A DNA stretch of 64,000 bases, taken from contig CAMVOS010000007.1 of the NCBI GenBank assembly GCA_947169185.1, positions 1 through 64,000 on the forward strand. Reading direction: 5' to 3'. The DNA is from an uncultured Prevotella sp. Its GTDB lineage: Bacteria; Bacteroidota; Bacteroidia; Bacteroidales; Bacteroidaceae. The translations under genes and the position numbers were made by a program. This document shows positions 48,186 to 54,363 of this stretch, in pieces. Under the pieces are notes generated by a model that was not told where the DNA came from, did not search any database, and worked only from the letters and a program-made list of their open reading frames with translations. Numbering within the stretch: the first letter of the stretch is position 1; each line of letters starts with the position of its first letter.

Positions 48186-49352
48186 CTAGAACTTCCTCCA
48201 CACCATCTTATTTACCACACCGACGTAGGATTGGATAATCCTTACAACCTTAGTACTTACGTTTTCGTCGGTGTAATCAGGTACGGGTATTCCGGGTTCG
48301 TTATTCTTGATGAGTTCCACGGCAACGTCAACGGACTGGAGTAATCCCTTGGTGTCTATGCCGCTCAGGACAAAGCATCCCTTGTCAAGGGCCTCGGGGC
48401 GCTCGGTGCTGGTGCGGATGCACACGGCGGGGAAGGGCTTGCCAATGGAGGTGAAGAAGCTGCTCTCCTCGGGCAGGGTACCGCTGTCGCTCACCACGGC
48501 AAAGGCGTTCATCTGCAGGCAGTTGTAGTCGTGGAAGCCCAGGGGCTCATGCTGGATGACGCGCTTATCGAGCTGGAAACCACTTGCCTCCAGGCGCTTG
48601 CGGCTGCGGGGGTGGCAGGAGTACAGGATGGGCATATCGTACTTCTCGGCCATCTTGTTGATGGCGTTGAACAGGCTCAGGAAGTTCTTCTCGGTGTCAA
48701 TGTTCTCCTCACGGTGGGCGCTCAGCAGGATGTACTTGCCCTTCTGCAGGCCCAGGCGCTGGTGGATGTCGCTGGCCTCTATCTCCTTGAGGTTGCCACG
48801 GAGCACTTCGGCCATGGGGCTGCCGGTGACGTAGGTGCGCTCCTTAGGGAGGCCGGTGTCGGCCAGGTAGCGGCGGGCGTGCTCGCTGTAGGCCATATTG
48901 ACGTCGGAGATGATGTCCACGATGCGGCGGTTGGTCTCCTCGGGCAGGCACTCGTCCTTGCACCGGTTGCCGGCCTCCATATGGAAGATGGGGATGTGCA
49001 GGCGCTTGGCCCCGATGACGCTCAGGCAGCTGTTGGTGTCGCCCAGCACCAGCACGGCATCGGGCCCCGTGGCCACCATCAGCTGGTAGCTCTTGGCAAT
49101 GATGTTGCCCATGGTCTCGCCCAGGTCACTGCCCACCGCCTCCAGGTAGATGTCCGGATCGGCCAGCTTGAGGTCCTTGAAGAACACCCCGTTGAGGTTG
49201 TAGTCGTAGTTCTGCCCCGTATGCGCCAGCAGGCAATCGAAATACTGCCGGCACTTGTTAATCACAGCGGCAAGACGGATAATCTCCGGTCTTGTACCAA
49301 CAATAATCAGAAGCTTTAATTTACCATCATTTTTAAATTGTTTCATTGCCAT
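48186..49352 (-). CDS. capG: UDP-N-acetyl sugar 2-epimerase (CapG-like)
   Basis: KLLIIVGTRPEIIRLAAVINKC; TGQNYDYNLNGVFF; SDSGTLPEESSFF. Confidence 0.88.
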   Translation of the reverse strand: MAMKQFKNDGKLKLLIIVGTRPEIIRLAAVINKCRQYFDCLLAHTGQNYDYNLNGVFFKDLKLADPDIYLEAVGSDLGETMGNIIAKSYQLMVATGPDAVLVLGDTNSCLSVIGAKRLHIPIFHMEAGNRCKDECLPEETNRRIVDIISDVNMAYSEHARRYLADTGLPKERTYVTGSPMAEVLRGNLKEIEASDIHQRLGLQKGKYILLSAHREENIDTEKNFLSLFNAINKMAEKYDMPILYSCHPRSRKRLEASGFQLDKRVIQHEPLGFHDYNCLQMNAFAVVSDSGTLPEESSFFTSIGKPFPAVCIRTSTERPEALDKGCFVLSGIDTKGLLQSVDVAVELIKNNEPGIPVPDYTDENVSTKVVRIIQSYVGVVNKMVWRKF

Positions 49353-50368: not shown

Positions 50369-50610
50369 GTTAAACACCCCGTTGAGGTTGTAGTCATAAT
50401 TACGCATTGCGTTTCCTCCTTCTCGCTCGACAGTGCTCATGCAAGCATGGCACTGTACTCACTCGTGCGTCGGTTCTGGCCCGTATGCGCCAGCAGGCAG
50501 TCGAAGTACGTGCGGCACTTGCCGATGACCGCCGCCAATCTTATAATCTCCGGCCGCGTCCCCACAATGATGAGGAGCTTGAGTTTGCCGTTGTTTGCGA
50601 AATTTGCCAT
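50367..50610 (-). pseudogene. 5' fragment of a second capG-like gene, interrupted by a palindromic insert
   Basis: Translates MANFANNGKLKLLIIVGTRPEIIRLAAVIGKCRTYFDCLLAHTGQN then runs into the insert and a stop; matches the N-terminus of 48186..49352. Confidence 0.85.
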
Positions 50611-51295: not shown

Positions 51296-51763
51296 TCACT
51301 TGGCTAGCACAATGCTATCTGCGGCATCGGCAAACTTGGAGAGGTCGGCTTCGTGGAGAGGATAGTACATGCTCACCACTTCCTTGATGCCCAGGCCTTT
51401 CTTGCGCATATAGGCAAAGCTGCGGCGGGTGAGCCACTGGTAGTAGGCCAGCACCCAGCCGGCCCAGTACTCGGGGCCTACGGTATAGGTGCCGTCATTG
51501 TCGTGCAGCACAGTGCCGCCCGTGGACTCCACCACACTGTCGGCCAGCTCGGCACCCGACATGCCCACCAGATAGCGGGGGTTGCCGCCAGCGAACTGTC
51601 GCGACACGTCGGAGGCAAGGAACTTCTCGTAGAACTCCTCGATGGGGTAGCCGTACTTGCGCACGCCACAATCGAGCATCACGGCAAGGTTGCGCATGGC
51701 TCCGGAGAGGTATGTCTTCTTATATGCCCTGGCCATTTTTCCAATTGTTTCTGATGATGTCAA
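51296..51763 (-). CDS. Hypothetical partner of the DUF3990-like ART
   Basis: 155 aa; overlaps 51720..52397 by 44 bp. Confidence 0.6.
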   Translation of the reverse strand: MTSSETIGKMARAYKKTYLSGAMRNLAVMLDCGVRKYGYPIEEFYEKFLASDVSRQFAGGNPRYLVGMSGAELADSVVESTGGTVLHDNDGTYTVGPEYWAGWVLAYYQWLTRRSFAYMRKKGLGIKEVVSMYYPLHEADLSKFADAADSIVLAK

Positions 51764-52397
51764 TCACGTATATCTCGTTCTCCGCCATGGGTTTAGCCGC
51801 AATCTGGCGGTACTTGCCGCGAGCCTCCTCGTCGCGCTGACGGTACTTGGCGAAGTACTCCTTGCGGGGAGCCTTGATAGCCTCCACGAAAGTGAGCGCA
51901 TCGAAAGCTTTCTTCGACTTCAGTACCACCTGCTCGCCTAACTTGCCCAGGCGCATGGCCTCGGATAGGTCGGAGAGCGAGAGCGTGCCGTTCACGAAGT
52001 CGCCCGCATAGGAGAAGTAGGAGTCGTTGGCACGGTAGCCAATGATGATGTCGTACTTCTTGTAATCGACCTTGAAGTTCTCCAGAATGTATGCCCTTGC
52101 CCGCTGCGGCAGACCCTCGGCCACGTTGAACTTGCGGTTCTCCAGCAGGATGGCCAGCCAGTTGAGAATGTTGTACTCGGGGGTGTTAAGATTCAAAACA
52201 CTGAGGCCGGTCATCTTCAGCTGATAGTGGTTGGCATACCCGTCAGTGTCCGACGAGCAGGCCCATTCCTTGGCCAACTCAGCATGCTCGGTGCAGTAGA
52301 AGCCCCGACCGTAGTCGTTGTAGAGTTTCCCCGCCCCAAACACAGGACTCTCTATCACCTTGGGAGAGCCGTGGTATATGTCAATCACATCAGACAT
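51720..52397 (-). CDS. DUF3990-like ADP-ribosyltransferase-fold protein
   Basis: IYHGSPKVIESPVFGAGKLYNDYGRGFYCTEHAELAKEWAC. Confidence 0.75.
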   Translation of the reverse strand: MSDVIDIYHGSPKVIESPVFGAGKLYNDYGRGFYCTEHAELAKEWACSSDTDGYANHYQLKMTGLSVLNLNTPEYNILNWLAILLENRKFNVAEGLPQRARAYILENFKVDYKKYDIIIGYRANDSYFSYAGDFVNGTLSLSDLSEAMRLGKLGEQVVLKSKKAFDALTFVEAIKAPRKEYFAKYRQRDEEARGKYRQIAAKPMAENEIYVIDIIRNNWKNGQGI

Positions 52398-52680
52398 AGT
52401 ACTGGTCGTTGTTATATTTCATTTTGGCAGTCGTAACTGCCGAATTACCGGCTATCTCACTTTTGGCAGACGCGTCTGCCAAATTGATTTCGTCAGTCGT
52501 AACTGACGAATTGCTGTCGAATACGCGCCATTCCTCGTAGAACGTGCGCATGTTACGCAGGTTACGGGCAGAGAAACCCTTGAGCCCGGGCAACTCGGCA
52601 CTGAGCTGGCGACTGATGGTCTCAGCCGTCTTGATCTGCTGCACCGCCTCGTTATACTGTGTACTCAGTTTCTCTTGCAT
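52390..52680 (-). CDS. Truncated DUF1016 N-terminal domain (YhcG-like fragment)
   Basis: ISRQLSAELPGLKGFSARNLRNMRTFYEEW; only 96 aa, no nuclease domain. Confidence 0.7.
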   Translation of the reverse strand: MQEKLSTQYNEAVQQIKTAETISRQLSAELPGLKGFSARNLRNMRTFYEEWRVFDSNSSVTTDEINLADASAKSEIAGNSAVTTAKMKYNNDQYYV

Positions 52681-52724
52681 CGCTTCTATTCTTTATCTTG
52701 TTAATCCGTCAGTCACGACTGACG
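52423..52724. repeat. Cluster of four related short hairpins
   Basis: GGCAGTcgtaACTGCC, TTTGGCAGACGCGTCTGCCAAA, TTCGTCAGTcgtaACTGACGAA, CGTCAGTCacGACTGACG. Confidence 0.85.
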
Positions 52725-52909
52725 TTTTATTCTTTCTATTTGTGGCACAAGTTGTGCAACAATTTGTTTCAATCTCGGTTGAGGGAATATTTAATCCCTC
52801 AGATATTCCCTCAAATGGGTTCGTTTATTTCCTTATTATATACTCGGCCACCATCGGCCTATGTTAGGTGCCACGGGGACAGGCCCCTGTCACGGTGAGG
52901 GCGGGAGTT

Positions 52910-53303
52910 TTATTCCGTCAGTTCTTGGGCCTCATGCATATTTTGCGCGTGACAGGCGTCAACGATCGTGACAGTATCGCCCTCTATCGTGTACGCAAAG
53001 TACCACTTGAGCTTTGCTCGAGTCTGCTCACGCTCGACAATGCACAAATACGATTTGGCATTGTTCTCGCTTAATCGCAGCCTTGTCAGTGTTCGCCATG
53101 TGGTAGCCCGCCCAACGTTTCAGAATAGGCGGACGTCGCAGAAGACCGTTTTCTATACGGTAGAATGCATCCACAGCATCATCGATATTCTGCAGCATCA
53201 GCTCCTCGGAATAGGTGTGTCTGTACTTCAGTGCCACGTGGTAATAGAACGAATATATTGCCTCATAGCACTGAGGGAGGACTAAGTACTGATACCTGCT
53301 CAT
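52910..53303 (-). pseudogene. RelE/ParE-like toxin, frameshifted
   Basis: ORF 53028..53303 ends early; the other frame continues ENNAKSYLCIVEREQTRAKLKWYFAYTIEGDTVTIVDACHAQNMHEAQELTE* to 52910. Confidence 0.65.
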
Positions 53304-53590
53304 GGCATAGAATAGACCTCGTGAACCATCCGGTGAAGTCGCTCGCGCATAGTTTCCACGTCTATAGCATGGCTGGCTGAAGCAGACAACTCTGCCTGCC
53401 TGCTGCTTTTCACGCGTTGCTCTATGGCATCATAAACCTCTTCTGTGGTCAGATTACTTTCATTACGCATCTGCTGGAGGCGAAGGTCTATAAGTTCCTG
53501 TGCCCAAAGGCGGATGGCTGCCGTGGAGTCTAACTCGGGACGCATGTCGCGAAGTGCAGCCTCATCAACGTTTATACTTACCATGCACAT
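53300..53590 (-). CDS. Cognate antitoxin-like protein
   Basis: 96 aa; ATGA overlap with the toxin. Confidence 0.6.
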   Translation of the reverse strand: MCMVSINVDEAALRDMRPELDSTAAIRLWAQELIDLRLQQMRNESNLTTEEVYDAIEQRVKSSRQAELSASASHAIDVETMRERLHRMVHEVYSMP

Positions 53591-53739
53591 AATTCAAACC
53601 TTTCTTTATTTGTTGACTACTAAATTACTTGTTTTTATCTCATTTGAGGGAATATTTTCCGTCGGGTGAGGGAATATTTTATCTTAACGAGGTCCGAACA
53701 GGACCTGTGCCATGCACGGACCTCGTGATGAGAGTTTAT

Positions 53740-54363
53740 TTACAGGGCATGATAGCCTCCGGTCTTCTTGCTGCCTCGGTGCTCAATGAGACCTCGCTCA
53801 ATCAGCACCTTGATGTGGCGCTCAATGGACTTCGAGGGTATCCCCGTCTCGGCTTCAATTCCAGGGACATTTATTCCCTCATTGACCTTGATGCAGTCGA
53901 GGACCTTAGTTTGTCCCGCAGAAAGGTCGGAAAGAGCAGAAATAATGTCTTTTTCCGAACACGAATCACTCGAATTACACGAATTTGAGTCCTCTGAGGG
54001 ATTATCTGAGGGAATATCCACTCGCTTTTTTTTATCCCTCATCGCGAAGTACCGTTTCCGGAATCGCTCCGACTCCGTGATCAGCCGGCCTTCAGCATAG
54101 TGCATAAAGCCTTTTGCCTTGTGCTCTGGATCATCCTCGATGAAAGGCAGCAGCCTTAACATCGCCCGATAAATCTTTTCCGCTTCCTCAATGCGCTTCT
54201 GCTCCAGCCGGAGTTTGAACACATCAGAAGCGACCCAGAACATGCACAGGGTCGTGAACCGCCCCTTATGCTCCCTATAGATCGGACGTATCGCCTCGTA
54301 CGCCTCCTCAATCTTGCCCTGCTTGCGCAAAGCAAATATATCCTTAACGTTCATAAACCGCAA
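53740..54363 (-). CDS. Winged-helix protein
   Basis: C-terminal INVPGIEAETGIPSKSIERHIKVLIERGLIEHRGSKKTGGY. Confidence 0.6.
   Translation of the reverse strand: MRFMNVKDIFALRKQGKIEEAYEAIRPIYREHKGRFTTLCMFWVASDVFKLRLEQKRIEEAEKIYRAMLRLLPFIEDDPEHKAKGFMHYAEGRLITESERFRKRYFAMRDKKKRVDIPSDNPSEDSNSCNSSDSCSEKDIISALSDLSAGQTKVLDCIKVNEGINVPGIEAETGIPSKSIERHIKVLIERGLIEHRGSKKTGGYHAL

Follow-up and report, generated by a model that had tools for sequence, protein, structure and literature searches.

Four palindromes in and beside a truncated YhcG/DUF1016 gene

Why four related palindromes should be clustered in and beside a short DUF1016-like reading frame is the question raised by this DNA from an uncultured Prevotella sp., which was analysed as a stretch of 64,000 nucleotides (hereafter the window). 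An initial annotation had described four hairpins, three in a DUF1016 fragment ORF and one just 5′ of its start codon, and all of them were found as described. The three internal palindromes lie in a minus-strand ORF (52390–52680) and comprise TTCGTCAGT-CGTA-ACTGACGAA at 52489–52510 (palindrome 1), a perfect 22 nt palindrome with the arms TTTGGCAGACG/CGTCTGCCAAA and the full sequence TTTGGCAGACGCGTCTGCCAAA at 52462–52483 (palindrome 2), and GGCAGT-CGTA-ACTGCC at 52426–52441 (palindrome 3). Palindrome 4, CGTCAGTC-AC-GACTGACG at 52707–52724, ends 26 nt 5′ of the ATG of the same ORF. The palindromes exceed chance expectation; with up to three mismatches allowed, the palindrome core was matched four times in the window, against a mean of 0.23 in 100 dinucleotide shuffles of the window, and two palindromes with an arm score of at least 9 were produced by none of 1000 synonymous-codon shuffles of the ORF. 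Another short palindrome, GCACAA-c-TTGTGC (52748–52760, minus strand), lies ∼64 nt upstream of the fragment ATG and is perhaps what remains of a different site.

The 96-residue product of this ORF is a truncated YhcG, a fragment rather than a full member of the family. It matched DUF1016_N (PF17761) with an E-value of 2.4e-8, above the cut-off, over profile positions 47–83 only, and also matched the PADLOC candidate PDC-S02. When compared with the full-length homologue at locus L188, the fragment has kept the first residues, both helices of the helix–turn–helix (HTH) and the palindrome region; ∼43 residues have been lost in frame, and everything after the palindromes is gone, including the whole nuclease domain. 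The C-terminal PD-(D/E)XK domain (YhcG_C, PF06250) was not detected anywhere in the genome from which the window derives, which is 75% complete. The predicted DNA-reading HTH helix, SARNLRNMRTF, is encoded at 52540–52572 (minus strand) and was assigned from the covariation described below and the AlphaFold secondary structure of a homologue (L156). The fragment has a palindrome after the HTH, an arrangement which is proposed here as a feature of the family. A DNA similarity search of plasmids with the window fragment returned nothing useful.

The ATG of the adjoining DUF3990 gene (51720–52397, minus strand; PF13151, E=1.2e-44), which is PDC-M42A-like by PADLOC, overlaps the stop codon of the fragment ORF (ATGTCTGA), and the two are therefore probably co-translated. 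Downstream lies a 155-residue ORF (51296–51763, minus strand; PADLOC E=1.1e-6) resembling the partner PDC-M42B, and together the two genes (51296–52397, minus strand) match the PADLOC phage-defence candidate pair PDC-M42A/B. Palindrome 4 is a possible candidate for an ordinary operator of the DUF3990 operon.

Several other features were observed in the vicinity. The 11-mer TGAGGGAATAT occurs in five exact copies within ∼1.3 kb (52780–52813, 53645–53677 and 54007–54017) around neighbouring small genes; with up to one mismatch there were 11 matches in the window against 1.66 expected, and these repeats are perhaps the operator of some other regulator. They flank two short overlapping ORFs (53028–53303 and 53300–53590, minus strand), which had no Pfam or NCBIfam match and whose layout resembles that of a toxin–antitoxin pair. 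A short ORF at 50437–50610 (minus strand) is near-identical to the N-terminus of a 388-residue ORF (48186–49352) that reads like a UDP-GlcNAc 2-epimerase, which represents a partial duplication.

The palindrome is a feature of the YhcG/DUF1016 family

The window hairpins are an instance of a trait that characterises the entire YhcG/DUF1016 nuclease family, archaeal genes as well as that of E. coli K-12. Among relatives, 77 DUF1016 ORFs contained 74 palindromes of score at least 9, against ∼3.8 expected from synonymous shuffles, and 65 of the 74 shared one place, between the HTH and the SWSH motif, where the DNA mostly encodes peptides such as I-V-Q-Q-P-V-A-Q-L. The same palindrome was present in 69 of 84 ORFs from named genomes of many phyla (Cyanobacteria, Acidobacteria, Planctomycetes, Proteobacteria, Chlamydiae, Methanosarcinales and others), and DUF1016 genes on viral contigs carry the same type. 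Palindromes of score at least 9 occurred at 0.99 per kb in DUF1016 ORFs compared with 0.17 per kb in flanking ORFs. The usual family form spans 27 bp, unlike the palindromes of the window, which are even-centred.

When the site was chosen solely by protein position, at six codons ahead of the invariant Trp, 79 of 165 distinct sequences formed 9 or more of the 13 base pairs and the distribution was bimodal; in many of the remaining sequences the palindrome is displaced by inserts. Taking the best 27 bp palindrome in the region, at least 10 of 13 pairs were formed in 201 of 236 genes, against 9/226, 6/222 and 9/220 (∼4%) for control stretches from the same genes. The inserts are additional palindrome copies, which often share the core of the first copy.

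The sequence of the palindrome varies from gene to gene, and paralogues inside single Bacteroidales genomes carry different palindromes, so a single host protein reading all of them is unlikely. Copies in the manner of an upstream operator were at chance level in the 1–1.5 kb flanks of palindrome-bearing ORFs, except at tandem paralogues. At four loci (L015, L016, L026 and L029) an extra palindrome precedes the main one, being located 5′ of the HTH codons or in an N-terminal extension, and in L026 and L029 the two have similar cores. Truncated or split DUF1016 genes were also encountered (L185, L190, L192 and L195, and the viral L097, L099 and L100); all except L195 break off at or just past the palindromes, as does the window fragment. 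Remnants reduced to the HTH retain their palindromes. DUF1016/YhcG was found in 479 plasmid records.

Palindrome bases covary with the predicted DNA-reading helix

Mutual information was calculated between the bases of the half-site and all protein columns outside the palindrome. The best protein columns for offsets 5, 6, 7, 8 and 9 were 47, 47, 43, 46 and 46 respectively. In the AlphaFold model of L156 (HTH helices at 51–62 and 71–83, N-terminal pLDDT mostly ∼70–89), columns 43, 46 and 47 fall in the second helix of the predicted HTH, at its positions 2, 5 and 6, and such positions of a recognition helix are classical contact points. This helix is encoded ∼19 codons from the palindrome. Arg43 was accompanied by G at offset 7 in 102 of 102 genes, and Thr or Ser at this column by T or C in 50 of 53; Asn or Gln at column 47 went with A at offset 5 (24/26) and Arg47 with C at offset 5, which is G on the opposite strand (37/39). 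These pairs are chemically as expected.

Common ancestry fails to explain the covariation, because in contrasts between 93 disjoint closest pairs the association of offset 7 with column 43 (p=2.5e-11) and that of offset 6 with column 47 (p=6.9e-9) ranked first and second among 1855 base–residue tests. Associations at offsets 2–4 may reflect subfamily history. A held-out set consisted of viral-contig genes less than 80% identical to any gene used earlier; at least 9 of 13 pairs were formed in all 35 examined, and for the genes reaching 10 or more pairs the Arg43–G7 association was seen in 16/16 and that of Asn/Gln47 in 9/9. The family-wide palindromes, their gene-specificity and the base–residue covariation were thus established by computation, and the site co-evolves with the reading helix of its putative binder. 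The initial annotation had also suggested that the hairpins could be target sites, and the covariation lends substance to this by pointing to recognition by the DUF1016_N HTH itself.

In the window helix, Arg39, Arg42 and Asn43 correspond to columns 43, 46 and 47 of the model. Palindromes 2 and 3 fit the Arg43/Asn47 code, palindrome 2 having G7 and A5; two of the four window palindromes do not match the current helix.

Helix and palindromes are exchanged as one cassette in E. coli yhcG

The K-12 yhcG gene was used as the query for E. coli, a Photorhabdus gene having given no matches, and it was matched in 4434 of 5426 complete E. coli genomes. Two allele classes are ∼96% identical except between approximately nucleotides 241 and 400, where identity falls to 62%. 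This divergent cassette of ∼160 nt contains both the helix and the palindromes, which are swapped as one. The common class (cassette in 3795/5426 genomes) combines Lys43 with CGCCAGACA (C7) as first palindrome, and the other (473/5426) combines Arg43 with GTGCAGACA (G7), in agreement with the code.

The yhcG gene of K-12 MG1655 has three tandem palindromes, of which copies 2 and 3 do not match the current helix, and the same is true of copy 2 in TUM2330. The mismatched extra copies in E. coli K-12 and in the window may be relics of older specificities. Two disruptions of this gene were observed (loci L351/L352): yhcG of E. coli B breaks off within the third palindrome, next to a gene for a transposase, and the third palindrome of strain ECCWS199 is interrupted by an IS1. 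Insertion sequences may favour these palindromes.

Searches for dispersed copies

The hairpins had initially been proposed to be mobile, of REP/RAYT type, and to be similar in idea to Rickettsia palindromic elements (RPEs). In the 75% complete genome of the window the core was found beyond chance only at the window locus; there were three other matches, at chance level, and more in a reversed-pattern control. The single gene for a Y1/RAYT-type transposase (Y1_Tnp) in this genome had no such hairpins around it. The exact window core was not found in the other related genomes searched, where copies with one mismatch were about as frequent as in the reversed control. Sixteen other genomes were searched genome-wide with the commonest family core, allowing up to three mismatches; few matches were obtained, and the palindromic ones followed up beyond the known loci fell without exception in DUF1016 genes or fragments of them.

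REP elements and RAYTs (PMC3733652) resemble the present case in that short palindromes are able to form hairpins. Unlike those systems, the YhcG palindromes are intragenic at a fixed position and associate with no tyrosine transposase, and neither dispersed, mostly intergenic copies nor repeats flanking a RAYT were found; a REP/RAYT system was therefore rejected. RPEs, of ∼100–150 nt, occur in many unrelated genes and in intergenic regions (PMC4316617). They share with the YhcG palindromes an in-frame position in coding sequence and extra copies that are in-frame inserts; the YhcG palindromes, unlike RPEs, measure 22–35 nt, lie in a single family and place and co-evolve with a helix. In the genomes searched the same element was not found in many unrelated genes, and the likeness is superficial, the encoded peptide forming part of a conserved domain.

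That mobile palindromic elements of either type were inserted in frame into DUF1016 genes is thus very improbable and already largely refuted. The extra tandem copies, which are in-frame inserts after a conserved position, are what such an origin would predict. The comparison of DUF1016 genes with and without inserts, which the initial annotation had proposed and which proved to be the right test, speaks against it: genes that lack an insert still have the canonical palindrome, formed by codons for conserved domain residues, and only additional copies are inserts; so do the restriction to one family and one place, the lack of dispersed copies and of a RAYT link, and the covariation with the reading helix.

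Discussion

The bases of the palindrome change in step with the DNA-reading helix of the protein encoded around it, which makes self-binding very probable; the palindromes are most likely self-recognition sites, bound by YhcG/DUF1016 proteins within their own genes. Physical binding, dimerisation and repression are steps that we infer from sequence, and they may be pictured as follows. DUF1016_N would be an HTH DNA-binding domain, of which a symmetric pair of subunits would read a palindrome of ∼27 bp located in the coding sequence of the protein itself, usually ∼19 codons 3′ of those for the reading helix. The helix and its site would be inherited jointly as one specificity cassette, so each gene would retain a private site. 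Protein bound inside the gene could block transcription as a roadblock, and this negative feedback, strengthened by additional palindrome copies, would hold a potentially harmful PD-(D/E)XK nuclease at low levels at each new location of the mobile gene.

Autorepression is our first choice for the purpose of self-binding, and a tentative one held at slightly less than even confidence, because each gene has private sites that move along with it, and because several occur per gene in a nuclease gene frequently carried by mobile elements. Against it, a site ∼100 codons into a gene is unusual and promoter-region copies are not general. In the window only the HTH and four sites, one of them in the 5′ region, are left, joined to the DUF3990 gene, which suggests a stand-alone autoregulator of the operon or its decaying remnant.

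The main rival to autorepression is action of the nuclease at the site. The palindrome would then be a substrate at which YhcG binds and its PD-(D/E)XK domain nicks, cuts or resolves the DNA, for example where a cruciform is extruded, with self-cleavage, gene conversion, homing or a replication checkpoint at the locus of the gene itself as the result; both the action and these outcomes we regard as unlikely, at roughly one chance in four. The helix–site covariation fits a substrate equally well, and several truncated copies stop at or just past palindromes. The nuclease fold is also in favour, Foldseek having placed only this domain of YhcG (near EndoMS/NucS, McrBC and Card1; no solved structures were found by sequence), as are the resemblance to Holliday-junction resolvases (Kosinski 2005, PMC1189080) and the synthetic lethality of a yhcG deletion with dnaB, dnaN and parE hypomorphs (PMC2672614). 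Set against these, genes persist with intact, often multiple, perfect sites, and HTH-only remnants keep their palindromes; the E. coli truncations examined adjoin insertion sequences or transposase genes and so need not be self-cuts. It is conceivable, if rather doubtful, that YhcG is a self-addressed nuclease, the reading helix and target palindrome forming a specificity cassette of ∼160 nt in the gene and the nuclease being aimed at its own gene, licensed by it or held inactive on it.

Two further explanations can hardly hold. Inverted repeats in a coding region would fold in the mRNA, and a hairpin could control translation or stability of the message. A G–T mismatch in the DNA corresponds to a tolerated G–U in the mRNA; among imperfect arm pairs G–T was nevertheless rarer than A–C (63 against 109), and with no G–U excess an RNA hairpin was rejected. 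Pairing also reaches offsets 1 and 2 (58% and 75%), central bases which could not pair in an RNA loop, and the covariation with the HTH counts against this reading, which is highly improbable. More improbable still is a functionless mutational by-product. Template switching at quasi-palindromes makes imperfect palindromes perfect, and could do so here; the restriction to one place in one family across phyla and the covariation would be left unexplained, and the held-out Arg43–G7 association argues against it.

Preference for self-recognition invites comparison with other intragenic sites. Autoregulatory operators and binding sites are known inside the gene of their own binder, for example parS within spo0J/parB, and the palindromic YhcG site likewise appears to lie inside the gene of its reader. 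It differs in that it encodes conserved domain residues, that the protein has a nuclease domain and that different genes have different site sequences, which vary in concert with the reading helix. Rpn nucleases with the intragenic antitoxin RpnS (PMC10327210) share with YhcG a PD-(D/E)XK nuclease and a control element within the gene; in Rpn this element is a protein, produced from the variable C-terminal domain, whereas that of YhcG would be a DNA site and belong to the N-terminal domain. The window ORF is a fragment of YhcG/DUF1016 (PF17761 plus PF06250, COG4804; PADLOC PDC-S02) and its palindromes are those of the family. In the papers found on the family (PMC1189080, PMC2672614), YhcG is described as a nuclease whose N-terminal domain is unknown, and the open literature searched yielded no palindrome, DNA-binding code or self-site for YhcG/DUF1016.

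The YhcG/DUF1016 nucleases are widespread and uncharacterised, and are listed by PADLOC as a phage-defence candidate. These data would assign to their N-terminal domain the role of a sequence-specific HTH, together with a binding site within the gene and part of a recognition code; all of this can be read from sequence, and E. coli K-12, with its three yhcG palindromes, offers a means of testing it. A conserved DNA signal is concealed within codons that specify a protein domain, and the site and the helix that reads it evolve as one cassette. Were YhcG indeed a self-addressed nuclease, bacteria and archaea would possess a novel, self-referential type of genetic element, which might serve in defence or as a gene drive and whose addresses would be allele-specific within a single species, E. 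coli for example.
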